A stretch of DNA of 64,000 nucleotides from Asaia bogorensis (lineage in GTDB: Bacteria > Pseudomonadota > Alphaproteobacteria > Acetobacterales > Acetobacteraceae), in NCBI RefSeq assembly GCF_900465345.1, contig NZ_UEGO01000004.1, forward strand, positions 62,001 to 126,000, in the 5' to 3' direction. Positions 1-7,450 of this stretch are shown in pieces (the first letter of the stretch is position 1; every line of letters begins with the position of its first letter). The position numbers were made by a program, and so were the translations under genes. Under the pieces are notes generated by a model. That model searched no databases. It was not told where the DNA came from and worked only from the letters and a program-made list of their open reading frames with translations.

Positions 1-232
1 GAAGGGTATCGGGCAGGGCTGCACAGTTGAGCTTGATAAGCGGCCTGTCCCAGCGCGGCGAGAGCAGAGCCAGTCGTGCGGCCACAAGCTCCTTGCCTGT
101 ACCGCGCTCGCCGATGATCAGCGCCGGCCGATCGAGCGGTGCGAGACGCGAGATATGGTCGAGCATCTCCAGAAACGCGGGAGATTGTCCGATCGGTGTC
201 GGGTTTTCTTCGTTTCTGGCAGATCGCGCCAT
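1..232 (-). CDS. pspF: PspF-like sigma-54 activator, N-terminal fragment (runs off window start)
   Basis: The minus-strand frame starts with ATG at 232 and reads 77 residues before the window ends. It shows the AAA+ Walker A of sigma-54 enhancer-binding proteins (IIGERGTGKE, about residues 40-49), followed by the typical KLNCAAL segment. The protein starts almost directly with the AAA+ domain and has no receiver or GAF domain, as in PspF. It is divergent from pspA, which supports the name. In the known system PspF activates the psp operon with sigma-54 RNA polymerase and is inhibited by PspA binding. The C-terminal helix-turn-helix lies outside the window. Confidence 0.85.
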   Translation of the reverse strand, partial: MARSARNEENPTPIGQSPAFLEMLDHISRLAPLDRPALIIGERGTGKELVAARLALLSPRWDRPLIKLNCAALPDTL

Positions 233-365
233 TTTCTGGCCAGTCTCATCCGTGGTGTTGCAAGAACTCTATCTTTCACCCCGGATCGTTACGCTTGCAA
301 GAGAAGCCTGTGTTCTCCTGCCCCGATTTCCTGTTAAATTCGTTCCAGCAAAGAAAGATCGTCAC

Positions 366-1052
366 ATGGGTATCTTCTCCCGCCTTGCGGATATTGTGAA
401 CTCCAACCTCAACGCCATACTGGCCAGCGCCGAAGACCCGGAGAAAATGATCCGGCTGATCATCCAGGAGATGGAAGACACGCTGGTCGAGGTGCGCAGC
501 CAGGCTGTCACCATGATTGCCGAGCGCAAGGGGCTTGAGCGTCGTGCACGCACGATGGTGCAGGAGGAAGACGAATGGCTGCGCAAGGCCGAACTGGCCC
601 TGACCCGCGACCGCGAAGATCTGGCCAAGGGCGCACTTGCCGCCAAGGCCACCATCGAGCAGTCGCGCAAGACGCTGGAGCAGCAGATTGCACAGGTCAA
701 TGAAAGCCTTGACCAGCAGCATGACGATATTGGCAAGCTGCAGGCCAAGCTGGCGGACGCGAAATCCCGCGAAAAATCGCTTTCGCTGCGCCACAAGGCT
801 GCGACCAATCGCATCAAGACACGCGAGCGCCTGTATGACACGCGCGTGGAAAATGCCTTCAACCGCTTCGAACAGGTCGAGCGTGCGCTTGACGCCCTTG
901 AGGGGAAGGCCGAAGCCTATGATCTCGGCCGTGGCCCCGGTGGCACGCGCAAGCCAAGCCTGCAGGAAGAACTGGCGGGCCTCGAAACCGATATGGCGGT
1001 CGAGAACGAACTCGAAGCGCTGCGCGCCCGGATCAAGAGCCGCCAGGGATGA
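366..1052 (+). CDS. pspA: Phage shock protein A
   Basis: This is a 228-residue PspA/IM30 family coiled-coil protein. It begins MGIFSRLADIVNSNLNAIL, the amphipathic membrane-binding helix of the family, and then has long heptad-rich helices up to the end, the usual PspA length. The open frame extends upstream to 27, but that part overlaps pspF and has no PspA homology, so the ATG at 366 is chosen. In the known system PspA inhibits PspF in the cytoplasm and, under envelope stress, moves to the inner membrane and stabilises it. It is first gene of a plus-strand operon with pspB and three exported proteins. Confidence 0.95.
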   Translation: MGIFSRLADIVNSNLNAILASAEDPEKMIRLIIQEMEDTLVEVRSQAVTMIAERKGLERRARTMVQEEDEWLRKAELALTRDREDLAKGALAAKATIEQSRKTLEQQIAQVNESLDQQHDDIGKLQAKLADAKSREKSLSLRHKAATNRIKTRERLYDTRVENAFNRFEQVERALDALEGKAEAYDLGRGPGGTRKPSLQEELAGLETDMAVENELEALRARIKSRQG

Positions 1053-1092
1053 GGACAAGCATGAGACGCGTTGCAAGCAAGGATAGGCCGTC

Positions 1093-1347
1093 ATGAGTCA
1101 TGGTTCCGGAACCGATCTGGGTGATCTGATCGGCCTCGCTGCGGTTGTGATGCCCTTCGTCATGGTCATGTATATCGTGACCATCCGTGCGCGTTCGAAG
1201 GCGACGGCCAGCAAATTGCAGGAATCGGATCTCGCTGCGCTCAATATGGCGCATGTGCAGGCACGCCGCCTTGAAGAACGCGTCGACCAGCTCGAGCGTA
1301 TTCTGGACGAGGATGTCCCTGGCTGGAGAACGCGGAGCTTTTCATGA
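1093..1347 (+). CDS. pspB: Phage shock protein B (small membrane protein)
   Basis: This 84-residue protein has one N-terminal membrane helix (about residues 11-31) followed by a charged coiled coil ending in LERILDEDVPGWR, which matches the C-terminal signature of PspB. AAGGA lies 9 bases before the ATG. In known systems PspB sits in the inner membrane with PspC, and together they recruit PspA. It starts 40 bases after pspA and its stop overlaps the next start as ATGA, so it is translationally coupled to the following exported protein rather than to a normal pspC. Confidence 0.9.
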   Translation: MSHGSGTDLGDLIGLAAVVMPFVMVMYIVTIRARSKATASKLQESDLAALNMAHVQARRLEERVDQLERILDEDVPGWRTRSFS

Positions 1348-2870
1348 TGGCAGACTGTCTGTATCGCCGCCCCGCCGGTCGCCACACGCGCCGCGTGGCG
1401 CTTGCGGCCCTGCTTCTGGCTGGCCTGGCACCGCTCGGGCCGGGAGGAGCCGGGTTTGACGGCCATGCCATGGCTGCACCGGCTCATGCCGGTTCGCCCG
1501 TTGTGATGGATGCGGAGGATCTCGATCTCAGCGTGCCCTGCCTGGGGCGCTTCGAGATCATGGTCGATCCGGCCATGAGCGACGGGGTATCGATCGACAG
1601 CTCTCCCTCAGGTGGGGCGCATCTGACCATGCGCACAGGCAAGACGCAGGGATCGTCCAAGGTTCTGATCACCAGCCGGACCTGTGCTCCCAGTGCTCGC
1701 GTCTCCATTCTGGTCGCGCCGAATGTCGGGGTGATGATCCATGACAGTCATGACACGCATATCATCATTCACGGCACGTTGGCCTCGCTGGAGGCCAGCC
1801 TCGAAGCCGGACAACTCGATGCCGACACCATCCAGTCGCTCGATCTGAGCCTGCGTGGCACCGAGCAGGTCCATATCGCCAGCCTCAACCGCGCCGCTCA
1901 GGTGGTTGAGACCGGGGCTTCGGGTCTTGTCGTCGATCACGCCGATCTCGATGCCTTTTCGGCACAGCTTTCTGAGACCAGCCATCTGACGGTGACGGAT
2001 GGCCGTTTCGACGTGTTGACCCTCATGGTCGAAAATGCCGCCAGCGCCCGCCTTGGGGGGAGCGCCAATACGGCCACCGTCTCCGCCTCGGGCACAGGGC
2101 TCGTCGCCATACCAAAGGTGAGCGGTGCCCTGACACGCACGGGCAACGTGCAGATCGGCCCGGTCGCATCGCCACCGCCCGATGCGGGATCACCACCCCA
2201 GAGCCCCTCTGCTCCGACAGCCGCGCCGCCAGCCCCCCCGGTTCCCGGGGACAAGACCCTGCCGCAGGATCATGCCGCGCAAGGAAGCGTTCCCCAGGAT
2301 AGCGCTACCCCGAGCGGCGTCCCTCAGAGCGGCGCCACAACGGGAGGCGCTTTCCCTGCCGGAATACCGCAGGGCCGCCCCGTGCAAGGCAATGGGGTTT
2401 CTGGCCCGACACAAATTGCCCCGCAGGGCATGATGCCCCCGAGCACGCCGCCCCTTCCCCCGGAAACATCAGGCCAGACTGTGCCGACACCGCCCACACC
2501 GGCACCTGCTACGGGGAATCCGGGCCAGAGCGGCACGGTAACAGCACCCGCTACGGGCTCGACTTCGGGCATCGCTACGTCCCCTTCCGCCTCTGTGGCG
2601 ACGGTGCCGAACACGAGTGCTTCGCCCCAGAGCCCAGCAGCGAACACATCTGGAGTAACCAACAATGCTCCGAATAGCGCCGGGCAGCCCTCAGGCACGG
2701 ACACGCCCGCCAGCTTACCGGATGCAGCGCCCGCCACGCAGCCCGTGACGAATGGCGCAGCCCAGACCATTCCGCAGGATTCCTCAGGCGCGGCGACGCG
2801 CACGACAGGGAGCGTCACGCCCGCCACCCCTGCCGCTCCCTCCGCATCAAAGGGAGATCAGACGAGGTGA
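1344..2870 (+). CDS. Exported repeat protein with long low-complexity tail, in psp operon
   Basis: The 508-residue product has a signal peptide (hydrophobic core about 18-30, likely cut after Ala-rich HAMAA near 45). A beta-rich region of about 50-270 resembles the beta-helix GIN/DUF2807 type of exported protein. After that come about 230 residues rich in Pro, Ser, Thr, Ala, Gly and Gln with no membrane anchor at the end. It overlaps pspB by 4 bases (ATGA), with GGAG 6 bases before the start. Its head looks related to the next two proteins, but the PspC-like tail they carry is absent. It is probably periplasmic or secreted. The function is unknown; a role in envelope stress is inferred from the operon only. 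Confidence 0.75.
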   Translation: MMADCLYRRPAGRHTRRVALAALLLAGLAPLGPGGAGFDGHAMAAPAHAGSPVVMDAEDLDLSVPCLGRFEIMVDPAMSDGVSIDSSPSGGAHLTMRTGKTQGSSKVLITSRTCAPSARVSILVAPNVGVMIHDSHDTHIIIHGTLASLEASLEAGQLDADTIQSLDLSLRGTEQVHIASLNRAAQVVETGASGLVVDHADLDAFSAQLSETSHLTVTDGRFDVLTLMVENAASARLGGSANTATVSASGTGLVAIPKVSGALTRTGNVQIGPVASPPPDAGSPPQSPSAPTAAPPAPPVPGDKTLPQDHAAQGSVPQDSATPSGVPQSGATTGGAFPAGIPQGRPVQGNGVSGPTQIAPQGMMPPSTPPLPPETSGQTVPTPPTPAPATGNPGQSGTVTAPATGSTSGIATSPSASVATVPNTSASPQSPAANTSGVTNNAPNSAGQPSGTDTPASLPDAAPATQPVTNGAAQTIPQDSSGAATRTTGSVTPATPAAPSASKGDQTR

Positions 2871-4153
2871 TCCGCCTGCCCCTGTCCCGCTATCCGTATG
2901 CAGCCGTGAGCCGGATCCTGCCACAGGTCATAGGCCTTATGGGTCTGTGCATCCTGCTTCCCATCACGGCCCTTGCCGATCCGACACTTTCGAGTTCGGC
3001 CCTTTCGAGCGCGACCACGCCTCAGGCGCTTCTTGACGCCGCCCCCTATACGCTGCGCCTGAACACCTCATGCACGTCGTCCATCACGATCGAGGGGGCC
3101 AGCGAGGGTCAGGGTGACGCTGCCCTGCTGGAGGACCGGGATGGCGGGCAGATGGCAGGGCTGACGATTGCCGGCTCAGGCCATGAAACAACTGTCGATG
3201 GCAATCAGTGCGAGCGTGCCTCGACCCTGCATGTCAGGCCGGGTACAGCCATCATCGCGGTCATGCGTGGCTTTGGTTCGCTGCATATTTCCGGCGTCAA
3301 CGGGCCGGTTTCGCTCACACAGCGTGGCAGCGGCACGATTTCCATCGATCAGGCAACGGCGCTGGTTCTGAACGAGAACGGCTTTGGCAGTTTGCGGCTC
3401 GGCTGGCTGAACGGCCCCGCCACCCTGACCACCTCAGGCAGCGGCAGTGTCACGATTGCCCGCGTAGATGCCTCACATCTTGCAGCGGATTCGGGCGGAT
3501 TTGGCTCTATCACCCTTAATGCCGGGACCATCGGGGCACTCAACGCCGATATTCATGGCTCCGGGCATCTGAAATTCGGTGGGACTGTCGGCACGGCAAA
3601 CCTTGTCGCTTCGGGCTATGGCGGGATCGACATCGACAGGGTAACGGGCGAACTGCATCAGGAAGCCCATTCGCCAGCGACGATTTCACTCAATCATGCG
3701 TCGACCTTCCGCAAATCGTCTCATGCAAGCCATGCTATCCTCACCCTGCCTGATGGCACCGTCATCACGGCCCATAGTCTGACGCGGCCCGACGGCACGG
3801 TTATCAGCTTTGACAATGATGAAAGCGGCGACCGGGCCACAGCCGGTGATGATGCGACAACGCGTCACGGCCAGCGGCGATGGCTGGGCTGGGGCCTCCT
3901 GGCGCTGCTCCTTATCGTGTTCCGTCGGCGTATCGCAGGCTTCGTACCGGTGGATTTTCTGTCGCGCATCCGGCGTTCTGCCGGCTCGTCCCATGCGCCC
4001 CAGCCCTTGGCTGCGAGCGCGCCGGAAATTGCCACACTGGAAGCCCGTTTGCAGCGTCTCGACAAACGCGTGAGCGATATCGAGCAATGCGTGACCTCAC
4101 GCAATTTCCACCTGCATCGCGAATTTCATCATCTCGTCAGAAATCACGGGTGA
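2867..4153 (+). CDS. Membrane-anchored beta-helix-like protein with PspC-type C-terminal tail
   Basis: The start is GTG overlapping the previous stop (GTGA). The 428 residues hold a signal peptide (cut near Ala37), a repeat head with GxG turns at residues 135, 154, 172, 191, 211, 231 and 250, one membrane helix at about 339-353 followed by RRR, and a cytoplasmic coiled coil. It ends with the pattern VTS-x2-F-x-L-x3-F-x2-L (Val409 to Leu423). That ending is the conserved C-terminus of PspC (E. coli PspC ends YVTSDTFTLRSRFRQL), yet the PspC membrane domain is missing. I infer a periplasmic sensor head joined to a PspA/PspB-contacting tail. The function is not proven. Confidence 0.8.
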   Translation: MIRLPLSRYPYAAVSRILPQVIGLMGLCILLPITALADPTLSSSALSSATTPQALLDAAPYTLRLNTSCTSSITIEGASEGQGDAALLEDRDGGQMAGLTIAGSGHETTVDGNQCERASTLHVRPGTAIIAVMRGFGSLHISGVNGPVSLTQRGSGTISIDQATALVLNENGFGSLRLGWLNGPATLTTSGSGSVTIARVDASHLAADSGGFGSITLNAGTIGALNADIHGSGHLKFGGTVGTANLVASGYGGIDIDRVTGELHQEAHSPATISLNHASTFRKSSHASHAILTLPDGTVITAHSLTRPDGTVISFDNDESGDRATAGDDATTRHGQRRWLGWGLLALLLIVFRRRIAGFVPVDFLSRIRRSAGSSHAPQPLAASAPEIATLEARLQRLDKRVSDIEQCVTSRNFHLHREFHHLVRNHG

Positions 4154-4244
4154 TGCAGAGCGTGCCTGGCGGCGACAGGACAACCGACGCCTGCGCGCAG
4201 TCAGCGGGTCCGAACTGCGGCCCCATGAAAGAAGGACAGACGTC

Positions 4245-5657
4245 ATGAGCCGTATCAGCCTGGGCGTTTTTCTCGTCCTGACCATATCGCCCGCCCTTGC
4301 AGAAACGAGCTTGCCCACGACACCTGAGGCCGCACTCGCCGCCGCACCCTATACGCTGCATATCGAGGCGGGATGCGCCGCCCGTATTCACGTCCGGGGT
4401 GCCGGGGCGCTCCAGCAGAATGCCGACATGCGGGAGGTGCCGGCGGGTCTCTCCTTCGAGGCAGGTCACCACGACGCGTGGCTGACCGGCAATGCCTGCG
4501 GTCAGGATGCCACAATTCAGTTGCGGGAGGGGGCAGCCATCGTCTCCACCGCGATGAATTACGACAAACTGGATATCGACTGGGTCAACGGGCCGCTTTC
4601 CCTGCGTCAGGGCCGGGGCGATATTTCGGTCGACAAGGCGAGCGCCCTTCTGCTGAGGGGCAGCGGTCCTGGCGCCCTTTCCCTAGGCACACTGACCGGG
4701 CCGGCCATTCTTGCCACCTCCGGGCCGGGCGAGGCGCAAATCGATACCGCGACTGCGCCCTCGGTCGTGATCGGCACGACCGGCCCCGGCGATGTCGTCA
4801 TACGCGGTGGCACTATCGACCAGCTTGCCGTGTCGCTGTCCGGTCCGGGTGACGCCATCTTTGACGGCGTGGCGCGCAACGCCACGCTACGCACCAGCGC
4901 TTCGGGCGATATCCGTGTGCATCAGGTACTGGGAGACGAGCACGCCCATTCGAGCGCGAGCGGCAGTATCGAAATTGCCATGCCGTCCGGCCATGGCGAG
5001 CGCTTTACCGGCAAGGTGCGCGACAGCAACACTAATAATGGCACCCGCATCACGCCCGACGACATGCGTCTGGCCGATGGGACACGCATCAACAGCCATC
5101 GCCTGATCAAGCCAGATGGTACGATCATTGATTTCGATGCGCTGCGTCGCATGGGGAGCGAGAGCGTTCACGTCTCCACCCCCGAACCGCCTGAGCCTCC
5201 AGAGCCGCCGGAGCCACCAGAACCTCCCGAGCCACCGGCAGCGTCAGTCACGTCGGGAACGACCCATGTCAGCACGCAACATACGCCCTCCAGCCCATAC
5301 ACATTCGGAATGACCCTACCTACACTGTCCGATAACGGCAGCATGGCCTCCGGGCTGGTTGCGCTGAGTGCGCTGGCCATTGCCTTGATGCGTCGGCGTC
5401 TCATCCCGAAGATCATCGCGGCCCTTCAAAGCCACAATCCGGCACTTGCCCGCAAAGTCGAGCCTTTCCTTCTGTCACTCATGACCCGTGTGTCAGACCC
5501 GATGCCACAAACCCAGCTTCCGCAGTTGCTTGATCTGACAGAGCGTCTGCAAAAGCTCGACAGGCGTGTAGGGGCCGTTGAGACCTGCGTCACCTCGCGC
5601 GACTTCCACCTGCATACGCAGTTTCGCGATCTGGACCGCCGTCAGAACGGAGCCTGA
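4245..5657 (+). CDS. Paralogous beta-helix-like membrane protein with PspC-type tail and PEP repeat
   Basis: This 470-residue paralogue of the preceding gene starts at an ATG with AAGGA 8 bases upstream. It has a signal peptide (cut near Ala19) and a head with GPG turns at 20-residue steps (residues 141, 161, 181, 201). A PEP/PPE repeat occupies residues 313-331. One membrane helix lies at about 366-383 and is followed by RRR. The tail has heptads and ends VTS-x2-F-x-L-x3-F-x2-L (449-463), the PspC C-terminal signature. The two paralogues share SxTPxAxLxAAPYTL-like N-termini and a DGT-x-I-x-F motif before the linker. It is last in the psp operon, ahead of a hairpin. Its function is inferred as envelope-stress sensing. 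Confidence 0.8.
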   Translation: MSRISLGVFLVLTISPALAETSLPTTPEAALAAAPYTLHIEAGCAARIHVRGAGALQQNADMREVPAGLSFEAGHHDAWLTGNACGQDATIQLREGAAIVSTAMNYDKLDIDWVNGPLSLRQGRGDISVDKASALLLRGSGPGALSLGTLTGPAILATSGPGEAQIDTATAPSVVIGTTGPGDVVIRGGTIDQLAVSLSGPGDAIFDGVARNATLRTSASGDIRVHQVLGDEHAHSSASGSIEIAMPSGHGERFTGKVRDSNTNNGTRITPDDMRLADGTRINSHRLIKPDGTIIDFDALRRMGSESVHVSTPEPPEPPEPPEPPEPPEPPAASVTSGTTHVSTQHTPSSPYTFGMTLPTLSDNGSMASGLVALSALAIALMRRRLIPKIIAALQSHNPALARKVEPFLLSLMTRVSDPMPQTQLPQLLDLTERLQKLDRRVGAVETCVTSRDFHLHTQFRDLDRRQNGA

Positions 5658-5699
5658 CCGCGCCTTCTGACGCACAGGCCCTGCCGTTCGGAAACGCCT

Positions 5700-5727
5700 G
5701 AGAGGGCTGACAGAATTCAGCCCTCTC
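5700..5727 (+). terminator. Hairpin after psp operon
   Basis: A perfect 11-bp stem, GAGAGGGCTGA with TCAGCCCTCTC, encloses a 6-base loop 43 bases after the last psp-operon gene. No T-run follows, so termination may need other factors. Confidence 0.65.
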
Positions 5728-5879
5728 ACACCCTGTCTCCCCAATCCGGTCTGTTGCAACTGCCATGCGCAGAAAGGCAGACGATTGGGGTGCATCCTCG
5801 CGTCACAGAGGGCTTTGACGTAGCGCGTCAGGCAGGCTAGGGCTTGAAGCATGACCTTCCCTGATGGCAGCTGCTGACC

Positions 5880-6665
5880 GTGAATTTCCTACTCGATCCC
5901 GTTGCGGCCATCGGGCGTGCCTTCCTCGGCATCGTGCGCAAGGCTGGTGCTCTGGCGCTTTTTGCCTTGGCAGGCCTGTCGCATCTGCTGCGACCGCCCT
6001 TCTACTGGGGCGTGTTCTTCAACAGCCTGATTGAAATCGCCTTCTATTCGCTGCCAGTCGTGGCGCTGACCGCGATTTTCTCAGGCGGCGTGATCGCGCT
6101 TCAGTCCTATGCAGGCTTCGCCCAGTACCATGTACAGAGCGCCATTGCTGGAATCGTCGTTCTGGCTGTAGTGCGTGAACTTGGCCCGGTTCTGGCCGGT
6201 CTGATGGTGGCGGGCCGCGTCGGCGCAGCCATGTCAGCCGAGATCGGCACCATGCGCGTGACTGACCAGATCGACGCGCTGCGCACCCTTTCGACCGACC
6301 CGATGAAGTATCTGGTCACGCCGCGCCTTCTGGCTGGTACGCTGGCCCTGCCCTTTCTGGTGCTTATTGCCGATATTCTGGGCGTGCTCGGCGGCTTTAC
6401 CGTTTCGGTTTCCAAGCTCGGCTTTGACCCGCAGAACTACATTATTGCCACGTTCAACGCGCTCAAGCCGCTGGACGTGCTGGTCGGTCTTTCCAAGGCG
6501 GCCGTGTTCGGGTTCATCATCAGCCTGATGGGCTGCTATCATGGCTATACCAGCCGTGGCGGCGCCGAGGGTGTGGGATCGGCCACCACGGCAGCGGTCG
6601 TTGCTGCCTCGATCCTGCTTCTCGCTTTCGATTACCTCCTGACGGATCTGTTCTTCGCCCAATGA
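5880..6665 (+). CDS. mlaE: MlaE-family lipid ABC transporter permease
   Basis: The 261-residue protein is a MlaE/YrbE permease. It has an N-terminal amphipathic segment and five or so membrane helices, with family blocks such as VRELGPVLAGLMVAGRVGAA and AEIGTMRVTDQIDAL in the middle. GTG at 5880 is used because a TGA lies in frame just upstream, though its ribosome site is weak. With the overlapping ATPase it forms the inner-membrane part of a Mla-type phospholipid transporter that maintains outer-membrane asymmetry. No MCE-domain (MlaD) or MlaC gene follows. Confidence 0.92.
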   Translation: MNFLLDPVAAIGRAFLGIVRKAGALALFALAGLSHLLRPPFYWGVFFNSLIEIAFYSLPVVALTAIFSGGVIALQSYAGFAQYHVQSAIAGIVVLAVVRELGPVLAGLMVAGRVGAAMSAEIGTMRVTDQIDALRTLSTDPMKYLVTPRLLAGTLALPFLVLIADILGVLGGFTVSVSKLGFDPQNYIIATFNALKPLDVLVGLSKAAVFGFIISLMGCYHGYTSRGGAEGVGSATTAAVVAASILLLAFDYLLTDLFFAQ

Positions 6666-7450
6666 GCGCCCTGCCCAAGATCCGCATTCGCGGCCTGACC
6701 AAATCCTTCGGCTCCAAAACCGTTCTGGATGGCATCGACCTCGATGTCGAAGCCGGAACGTCAATGGTGATTATCGGTGGTTCAGGCAGTGGCAAATCGG
6801 TGCTTCTGCGCTGCATCCTCGGTCTGATCACCCCGGATTCCGGCACGATCGAGATCGACGGTGAAAACGTGCTTACTGCTTCCCCCGCACGACGCGATGC
6901 CCTTGTCGAACAGATTGGCATGCTGTTCCAGAATGCTGCGCTGTTCGACAGCATGAGCGTGGCCGATAACATCGTGTTCGGCCTGCGCGCCAAAGGCCGC
7001 GGCAAGGCTCATCGCTTGAGCGCGGCACAAGCCCGTGCCCAGGCCGGTGATATTCTCAAGCAGGTCGGGCTCGATCCCTCAGTCGGGGCACTCGCGCCCT
7101 CCGAGCTGTCGGGCGGTATGCAAAAGCGCGTGGGGCTTGCCCGCGCCATTGCAGGCACACCCAACATCCTGTTCTTCGACGAGCCGACAACGGGCCTCGA
7201 CCCCATCATGGGGGCTGTGATTGACGGGCTGATCGTGGATTGTGTCAAACGCCTTGGCTCGACCGCTATTGCCATCACCCATGACATGGCCTCGGCGCAG
7301 CGTATCGGCGACCGTGCGGCTATGCTCTATCATGGCAAACTTGTCTGGCAGGGGCTGGCGTCAGAACTGATGAACAGCGGAAACGCGATGGTCGATCAGT
7401 TTACCCATGGCCGCAAGGACGGACCGATCGGTATGGAACTGCGGCGTTAG
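6662..7450 (+). CDS. mlaF: MlaF-family ABC transporter ATPase
   Basis: This 262-residue ABC ATPase has Walker A GGSGSGKS (about 39-46), signature LSGGMQKRVGLARAI and Walker B ILFFDEPTTGLDPI. The MQKR variant of the signature and the ending THGRKDGPIGM are typical of MlaF. It overlaps mlaE by ATGA, so the two are co-translated. It powers lipid movement by the MlaE permease at the cytoplasmic face. Confidence 0.92.
   Translation: MSALPKIRIRGLTKSFGSKTVLDGIDLDVEAGTSMVIIGGSGSGKSVLLRCILGLITPDSGTIEIDGENVLTASPARRDALVEQIGMLFQNAALFDSMSVADNIVFGLRAKGRGKAHRLSAAQARAQAGDILKQVGLDPSVGALAPSELSGGMQKRVGLARAIAGTPNILFFDEPTTGLDPIMGAVIDGLIVDCVKRLGSTAIAITHDMASAQRIGDRAAMLYHGKLVWQGLASELMNSGNAMVDQFTHGRKDGPIGMELRR

Follow-up and report, generated by a model that had tools for sequence, protein, structure and literature searches.

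Chimeric Toastrack proteins with a PspC-type tail and a probable displaced σ54 promoter in the psp operon of Asaia bogorensis and related Acetobacteraceae

We analyzed a stretch of 64,000 nucleotides from Asaia bogorensis (contig NZ_UEGO01000004.1, positions 62,001 to 126,000 of the forward strand; hereafter the window), near the start of which pspA, pspB and three open reading frames (ORF3, ORF4 and ORF5) lie divergent from pspF. The best explanation as a whole, and one that we consider probable, is a psp operon with a rebuilt PspBC relay, in which ORF4 and ORF5 would serve as chimeric PspCs, and with a displaced σ54 promoter. For the relay, the computations showed that the tails are homologous to that of PspC, that the genome has no PspC core, that PspC tails co-occur with PspB, that one lineage of PspB accompanies the chimeras, and that the proteins carry export signals; for the promoter, they gave where the site lies, a motif shared upstream of it, a start codon where transcription is predicted to begin, and the avoidance of antisense stops.

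PspC-type tails on ORF4 and ORF5

In an NCBIfam scan, a 37-residue stretch near the C-terminus of both ORF4 and ORF5 matched positions 85-121 of TIGR02978, the PspC family, with 26.0 bits (ORF4) and 21.1 bits (ORF5), so that the whole-protein cut-off of 104 bits was missed. These two tails were the sole matches when the genome was searched with TIGR02978 up to an E-value of 10, and the PspC core domain PF04024 was not found in the genome (best E-value 0.302). A canonical PspC encoded elsewhere was rejected on these PF04024 and TIGR02978 searches, which found none, as did PF04024 in the chimera-only relatives; the statement of an earlier note on this DNA that there is no canonical pspC was borne out genome-wide. 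The same note had placed the exported proteins "in place of PspC", which was correct for the core and incorrect as a total loss, as the PspC C-terminal domain is retained in ORF4 and ORF5.

A profile comparison with hhalign of 14 chimera C-termini against 18 canonical PspCs of Acetobacteraceae yielded 98.87% (E-value 3e-17, 48 columns), while, as controls, the chimera tail reached 55.5% against PspB and 0.4% against PspA, and none of 30 column shuffles exceeded 0.85%. The signature RLxxLExRLxxxExxVTSxxFxLxRxFRxL was common to the chimera and PspC tails, and in one relative (G048) the TIGR02978 match began as early as position 35. These comparisons indicated homology between the ORF4 and ORF5 tails and the C-terminal (PspA-docking) domain of PspC. 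The leucine zipper that E. coli PspC needs for binding PspA was reported to lie in its C-terminal part; a PspC fragment 40-119 alone induced psp, and a soluble fragment 69-119 did so when PspB was co-expressed (PMC3068692). The earlier suggestion that the two tailed proteins are the candidates for a partner of PspB gained support and was sharpened to partners of PspB and PspA, given the homology of their tails to the C-terminal domain of PspC and the fact that PspB above its cut-off was always accompanied by such a tail (30/30 genomes). The chimera part of our reading is well supported by sequence comparison as homology and less so as function.

Export and topology of the heads

Topology was assessed in 35 chimeras, namely ORF4, ORF5 and 33 from relatives, with signal-peptide and cysteine rules implemented in a simple custom script rather than a trained predictor. 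A signal-peptide-like start was found in 33 of the 35, and 33 also had exactly two cysteines in the head, the exceptions (L050 and L174) having called starts that seem over-long. In 31, the stretch following the C-terminal helix was more positively charged than the one preceding it; the four exceptions were ORF4, its counterparts in L038 and L039, and the chimera of G022. Among 22 ORF3 frames, two of which are fragments of one gene, 19 had a signal-peptide-like start and 20 had two cysteines, and a C-terminal hydrophobic stretch occurred in one fragment. In the window itself, ORF3-5 all had signal-peptide-like starts, and ORF4 and ORF5 passed the Toastrack (DUF2807) cut-off. The chimera-head profile matched the relatives of ORF3, and the chimera profile matched the sequences of the solved putative adhesins 3pet (5.8e-11) and 4opw (9.4e-6). 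The pattern of starts, charges and cysteines points to heads that are extracytoplasmic and oxidized, with the tail cytoplasmic by elimination. The periplasmic heads proposed previously were supported by the signal-peptide-like starts and cysteine pairs, the charge bias being less clear and not seen in ORF4.

Distribution and neighborhoods among relatives

The family survey covered 150 Acetobacteraceae genomes. PspB exceeded its cut-off in 30, and all 30 had a TIGR02978 tail match at an E-value of ≤0.01, either canonical or grafted: 16 carried canonical PspC only, 11 a chimera only (including the incomplete genomes G128 and G145), and 3 both. Two further genomes (G021 and G070) showed weak tail matches only. 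The search for the PspC core covered 20 genomes; PF04024 was absent from the nine complete chimera-only genomes (best E-value 0.08) and from the two incomplete ones, and was present at 7.1e-5 or better in all nine searched genomes with canonical PspC.

In a wider sample, 27 of 397 genomes encoded the tail at an E-value of <1e-14 in a frame of 399 amino acids or more; G049 and G666 also carried it, but in a short or broken frame. A class survey gave matches in 53 of 385 genomes. There, a chimera outside the family was considered and rejected, all non-family matches with an E-value of <1e-8 lying in frames of 79-259 amino acids; a weaker non-family match (3.4e-8) lay in a frame of 327 amino acids in G188. 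In G417:C15 and G322:C1, two tail-like matches stood side by side, one of them in a frame of 79-106 amino acids, and these may be PspB-like copies. A scan of named genomes returned nine loci (six from Asaia and one each from Swaminathania, Brytella, and Acidomonas), and megablast found no plasmid relatives of pspA.

Comparison of the pspA neighborhoods among relatives showed the gene order to be conserved and revealed four kinds. Of the two findings named in the earlier note as contradicting its reading, a canonical pspC elsewhere in the genome and a gene order not shared by relatives, neither was therefore observed. The first is pspF with pspABC. The second adds stand-alone Toastrack genes to this arrangement (L052, L056, L057, L092, L093, L179, and L180). 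The third, here called the dual lineage, combines pspF and pspABC with a pspB2-chimera pair elsewhere (G043, G049, and G080, and G558 by search hits), and G128 and G145 showed the pspB2-chimera pair only. The fourth is pspF with pspA-pspB-ORF3-chimera(s)-mlaEF, with a single chimera in G025, Acidomonas, G048, Brytella, and genus g55 and with two chimeras in Asaia and Swaminathania.

The PspBs encoded beside chimeras formed one clade with support of 95/91; the window's own PspB was outside this tree, and near-identical PspBs of its genus fell in the chimera-partner clade. In G043, G049, and G080, the canonical PspC was without the VTS signature, and the chimera kept VTS or VTT. A single case, the complete genome G022 (L042), kept pspB-ORF3-chimera-mlaEF and had no PspA and no RpoN; no pspF was seen in the flanks read, the rest of the genome not having been searched for PspF. 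The tail end of its chimera has decayed, reading KSRGSDR versus forms like QFRDLDR elsewhere. G054 likewise had no PspA and no RpoN, and it was outside the PspB and tail matches too.

A σ54 site beyond pspF

The promoter comparison used the 20 loci of the chimera clade in which pspF is present, from this genome and 19 more; of the 20, 8 belong to its own genus, 7 to g55, and 5 to single genera. Sites were scored with a weighted scan, in which canonical and dual-lineage sites, placed relative to psp gene starts trimmed to the profile match, reached 15.5-17.5 out of 17.5. In this genome, the complete pspF occupies L006:2112-3233 on the minus strand, only partly within the window, and the σ54 box lies at L006:2064-2079 (window -937 to -922), outside the window and just beyond the pspF stop. 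The arrangement recurred in 20/20 loci, the site ending 16-36 nucleotides past the pspF stop, oriented toward pspA and 1,189-1,346 nucleotides from it. Within the 260 nucleotides upstream of the clade pspA genes, a stretch that takes in the whole gap, no σ54 site was better than in shuffles (lowest p 0.29), and a consensus scan of the pspF-pspA gap of this genome gave no σ70-like site. Canonical loci had their σ54 site between the pspF and pspA starts (10/10), as did the dual-lineage psp loci (3/3), and in pspB2-chimera loci the first base of the site lay 49-135 nucleotides upstream of the called pspB2 start (6/6). A psp message from the candidate promoter, which is 1.2-1.35 kilobases upstream of pspA and beyond pspF in all 20 loci, would require read-through.

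The motif TGG-N9-CCA stood upstream of the site in 16 of the 20 clade loci, with 0.67 expected from single-base shuffles, and was often twinned about 20 nucleotides apart. Exact copies were also present at 6/6 pspB2-chimera loci (0.27 expected), 2/3 dual-lineage psp loci (0.12), and 7/10 canonical loci (0.49). We read the motif as the putative PspF site. In the PspF tree, a branch with full support (100/99) separates the clade from the rest; because of this, the promoter may have moved once.

An extra σ54-like site in four dual-lineage loci (L045:5334, L049:2994, L051:5403, and L172:2671) was taken as chance, as it lies inside a frame that, from the look of its sequence, we take to be cysteinyl-tRNA synthetase. 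Its recurrence probably reflects the codons of a conserved motif.

The open frame antisense to pspF

A start codon followed the σ54 box by 11-12 nucleotides in all 20 clade loci (19 ATG, 1 GTG), which, given the usual spacing from a σ54 box to the transcription start, is at or within a few bases of that start. At the equivalent position, ATG was found in 0/10 canonical, 0/3 dual-lineage psp, and 1/6 pspB2 sites. The clade start codon was in the codon-aligned antisense phase in 20/20 loci, across seven different spacings, and it opens a frame of 356-434 codons that ends 12-29 nucleotides before pspA in 14 loci.

Over 19 clade pspF genes cut to the profile match, this phase held 0 antisense stops in 6,899 codons, whereas the other two antisense frames held 151 and 194. 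The sense codons that would create such stops (TTA, CTA, and TCA) accounted for 0 of 1,182 leucine and serine codons in clade pspF, compared with 14/717 (2.0%) in pspA, 33/1049 (3.1%) in mlaE, 37/880 (4.2%) in mlaF, 5.8% in ORF3, 4.8% in the chimeras, and 11/739 (1.5%) in canonical pspF. Other rare codons were not avoided, rare leucine (TTG and CTT, 0.132 of leucine and serine codons) and rare serine (TCT and AGT, 0.060) being above their levels in pspA, mlaE, and mlaF. With one locus for each of seven genera, 0 stops stood against 8.9-11.8 expected (P 1e-4 to 5.5e-6).

The encoded amino acids look unconstrained, because fourfold-site divergence in pspF (0.543) was no lower than in pspA (0.499), mlaE (0.515), and mlaF (0.535); the frame is kept open and is not kept the same. 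A functional antisense protein was rejected, as the frame had no Pfam match and showed no wobble constraint. As a conserved arrangement with stop avoidance, the leader is well supported; the role proposed for it below is our inference.

Proposed mechanism

In the mechanism that we propose, ORF4 and ORF5 would each place an exported Toastrack β-helix head in the periplasm and the PspC C-terminal domain in the cytoplasm, joined by one membrane helix, and ORF3 would be a soluble exported head. PspB would hold the tail in the resting state. Heads meeting envelope damage would free the tail, which would bind PspA, and PspA would then release PspF, the tail acting as reported for the PspC tail in Yersinia and E. 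coli. A damage-sensing role of the heads is purely an inference. Released PspF would activate the σ54 promoter beyond the pspF stop. Because, in this clade, the only good σ54 site for the operon sits past the pspF stop, the psp message would run about 1.1 kilobases antisense through pspF before reaching pspA. Ribosomes entering at the leaderless start codon could cover this leader, shield it from Rho, and reach pspA, and the antisense transcript could damp pspF expression, providing negative feedback.

The promoter half of this scheme, which we favor with somewhat less assurance than the explanation as a whole, holds that the clade psp message starts at the start codon and is translated antisense through the whole of pspF, that stops were purged for translation of the leader up to pspA and not for a protein, that activation damps the activator, and that the same operon encodes chimeric PspCs bearing periplasmic Toastrack heads.

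Weighing the evidence

Several observations weigh against these readings. On the side of the chimeras, the membrane-helix part showed no detectable homology to the PspC helix (hhalign 0.6%), and PspB of E. coli was reported to contact PspC via its membrane region (PMC3068692); for these two reasons, PspB binding by the chimeras appears less sure than PspA binding. ORF4 did not have the positive-inside bias (net +3 before the helix, +2 after), and ORF3 reached 15.0 bits for DUF2807, below the cut-off of 24.2. In four genomes (G083, G101, G114, and G147), PspB was matched below its cut-off and a tail was not matched at all. In the head tree, the chimeras were not one clade, the dual-lineage heads grouping with stand-alone Toastracks (91/94), which conflicts with the PspB tree for that lineage. 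Altered canonical tails occurred in G096, and in G058 and G134, with no chimera detected, so that the PspC signature is not indispensable. Because the tails of G096 and G058 are altered in this way, the loss of VTS from the canonical tail in dual-lineage genomes is suggestive only.

On the side of the promoter, the 20 clade loci are not independent (8 from one genus, 7 from another, and 5 single), and the P-value for antisense stops was not significant within any single genus. TGG-N9-CCA was not exact in 4 of the 20 loci, and in 6 of the 20 the leader frame stopped 49-106 nucleotides before pspA. The untrimmed called pspF frames contained two antisense-stop codons in 6,982 (L040 and L046), which were gone after profile trimming, and other genes were also fully open in the same frame (7/19 pspA, 4/19 mlaE, 3/19 mlaF, and 3/13 canonical pspF).

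Four rival explanations were considered against this background. Were the tail likeness a generic coiled coil on proteins unrelated to PspC, the 55.5% that the tail reached against PspB would be understandable; this reading is nonetheless hardly credible and already contradicted by the 98.9% against canonical PspC, a common part that includes VTSxxFxLxxxFRxL, a tail match unique to the psp operon in the genome, and the 30/30 co-occurrence with PspB, and chance likeness was rejected by the profile controls. A less remote proposal, although an unlikely one, is that the Toastrack proteins are effectors, ORF3-5 forming an induced periplasmic scaffold that recruits PspA via the tails and works with MlaEF in membrane repair, with PspF released otherwise. 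It would fit the position of mlaE-mlaF next to the last chimera in the window and in 22 clade loci, the description of PspB and PspC as both regulators and effectors in Yersinia, and the pspB2-chimera operons, which have σ54 sites of their own, as expected of induced genes. However, release of PspF through binding to PspA was reported for just that part of PspC which is kept here as the tail (PMC3068692, PMC5596341), and the genome searches gave no other PspC. Effector and sensor roles are compatible with each other.

The remaining two rivals concern the promoter and its leader. The site behind pspF might instead drive an independent antisense RNA or the synthesis of an unrelated protein, pspA having its own unrecognized promoter nearby, to which the early end of the frame in those 6 loci would lend itself; we consider this improbable, given that no σ54 site lies near the clade pspA although canonical relatives have one there, that no σ70-like site was found in the pspF-pspA gap of this genome (by consensus scan only), and, for the protein, that fourfold-site divergence in pspF was not below the controls, the antisense amino acids looking unselected. 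In GC-rich genes, antisense frames aligned with the codons are often open, and GC-rich codon usage could have left the frame in pspF open incidentally, as the fully open canonical pspF and clade pspA genes would suggest. This we regard as very unlikely, as the other rare leucine and serine codons were as common in clade pspF as in pspA, mlaE, and mlaF or commoner, stops numbered 0 against the 8.9-11.8 expected across seven genera, and the start codon stood at the predicted start in 20/20 loci while being absent at all 13 canonical or dual-lineage psp sites.

Operon layout

The gene order pspF, pspA-pspB-ORF3-ORF4-ORF5 given in the earlier note was confirmed by gene calls and family profiles, as were the spacings (an ATGA overlap, a GTGA overlap, and a 91-base gap). 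PspA and PspB passed their equivalog cut-offs (TIGR02977 and TIGR02976), and RpoN is present in the genome (G000; PF04552 5.7e-51). The translation of pspF contains the GAFTGA motif of σ54 enhancer-binding proteins. ORF3 had neither a C-terminal membrane helix nor a PspC tail. The hairpin that had been said to close the unit exists as a perfect 12-base inverted repeat; its closing of the unit gained no support, there being no T run and no call from the terminator scan, and mlaE and mlaF follow. Here and in all 22 clade loci reaching that far, these two genes adjoin the last chimera, and their link to psp through lipid transport may be functional.

Table 1. Features of the psp region (window coordinates unless marked L006).
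Feature	Position	Strand	Description
pspF 5' part	2..232	-	σ54 enhancer-binding protein; profile of pspF and relatives matches conserved neighbors
Antisense leader frame	L006:2091-3338 (3' part = window 1..337)	+	415 codons; starts 11 nucleotides after σ54 box, stops 28 nucleotides before pspA; open in 20/20 clade loci
pspA	366..1052	+	TIGR02977 273.7 bits (cut-off 242.95); PF04012 3.5e-37
pspB	1093..1347	+	TIGR02976 60.1 bits (cut-off 51.7); one membrane helix and coiled coil
ORF3	1344..2870	+	Signal peptide, divergent Toastrack/DUF2807 head, long Pro/Ser/Thr-rich C-terminal part
ORF4	2867..4153	+	Signal peptide, Toastrack head, membrane helix, PspC C-terminal tail; DUF2807 26.9 bits (cut-off 24.2); TIGR02978 6.5e-6
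ORF4 membrane helix	3896..3952	+	Amino acids 344-362; hydropathy
ORF4 PspC-type C-terminal domain	4025..4135	+	Amino acids 387-423 of 428; TIGR02978 positions 85-121
ORF5	4245..5657	+	Second chimera, ORF4-like layout with Pro-rich linker; DUF2807 29.2 bits (cut-off 24.2), DUF4097 23.6 bits (cut-off 22.9); TIGR02978 2.1e-4
ORF5 membrane helix	5334..5390	+	Amino acids 364-382; hydropathy
ORF5 PspC-type C-terminal domain	5523..5633	+	Amino acids 427-463 of 470; TIGR02978 positions 85-121
Inverted repeat	5699..5728	+	Perfect 12-base arms 5699-5710/5717-5728; no T run
mlaE	5880-6665	+	PF02405 5.7e-75
mlaF	6662-7450	+	PF00005 1.8e-33

Relation to known systems and significance

The operon resembles the PspBC relay of E. 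coli and Yersinia in PspA, PspB, PspF, the C-terminal PspA-binding domain of PspC, and putative σ54 control; it differs in that the N-terminal core of PspC is replaced by an exported Toastrack head, in two copies, with a helix not demonstrably homologous. The gene-order part is already published, a survey having reported that Toastrack proteins replace PspC in some Alphaproteobacteria (example ANQ40502.1), in systems with pspFAB followed by several Toastrack proteins and no PspC (PMC11237479). That survey calls PspC replaced and argues for an intracellular Toastrack, whereas here the tail is retained and the heads have export signals and cysteine pairs; the part of its main text drawn on here mentions neither a retained tail nor the promoter position. 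New in this study is the retained PspC tail on Toastrack proteins, and among the titles and abstract openings returned by our literature searches we found no report of such a tail or of a psp promoter beyond pspF.

In Bacillus, LiaG and YvlB (DUF4097) are likewise Toastrack proteins linked to a PspA homologue, with a weak LiaG-LiaH and a strong YvlB-PspA/LiaH interaction reported and the LiaG domain called extracellular; the regulator is another one, and the part of that paper drawn on here mentions no PspC tail (PMC9239133). The promoter arrangement, seen here in sequence, would with its predicted long 5' leader antisense to an oppositely transcribed neighbor resemble an excludon or non-contiguous operon (PMC7154746); it would differ in that the antisense transcript covers the gene of the operon's own activator and in that its leader is a frame without stops, opened by a start codon where transcription is predicted to begin. 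Antisense overlapping genes, among them laoB and one opposite ompA (PMC7103648, PMC5810103), share a frame antisense to a known gene; here, openness is kept and the amino acids show no detectable constraint.

To our knowledge, how PspBC senses membrane damage is still an open question. In the chimeras, the tail of PspC stands apart from the core and is joined to a head with export signals. They therefore hint at the part of PspC that cannot be dispensed with, and sensing could be tested in them by swapping heads. They also bear on the location of Toastrack, whose extracytoplasmic placement is disputed by one survey (PMC11237479). If our reading of the promoter is true, the displaced promoter and the stop-free frame would be a clear case of synonymous codon choice selected for translation of the opposite strand and would give a stress response built-in feedback, the codons of a regulator gene being chosen in part because the gene also serves as leader for the operon that the regulator controls.

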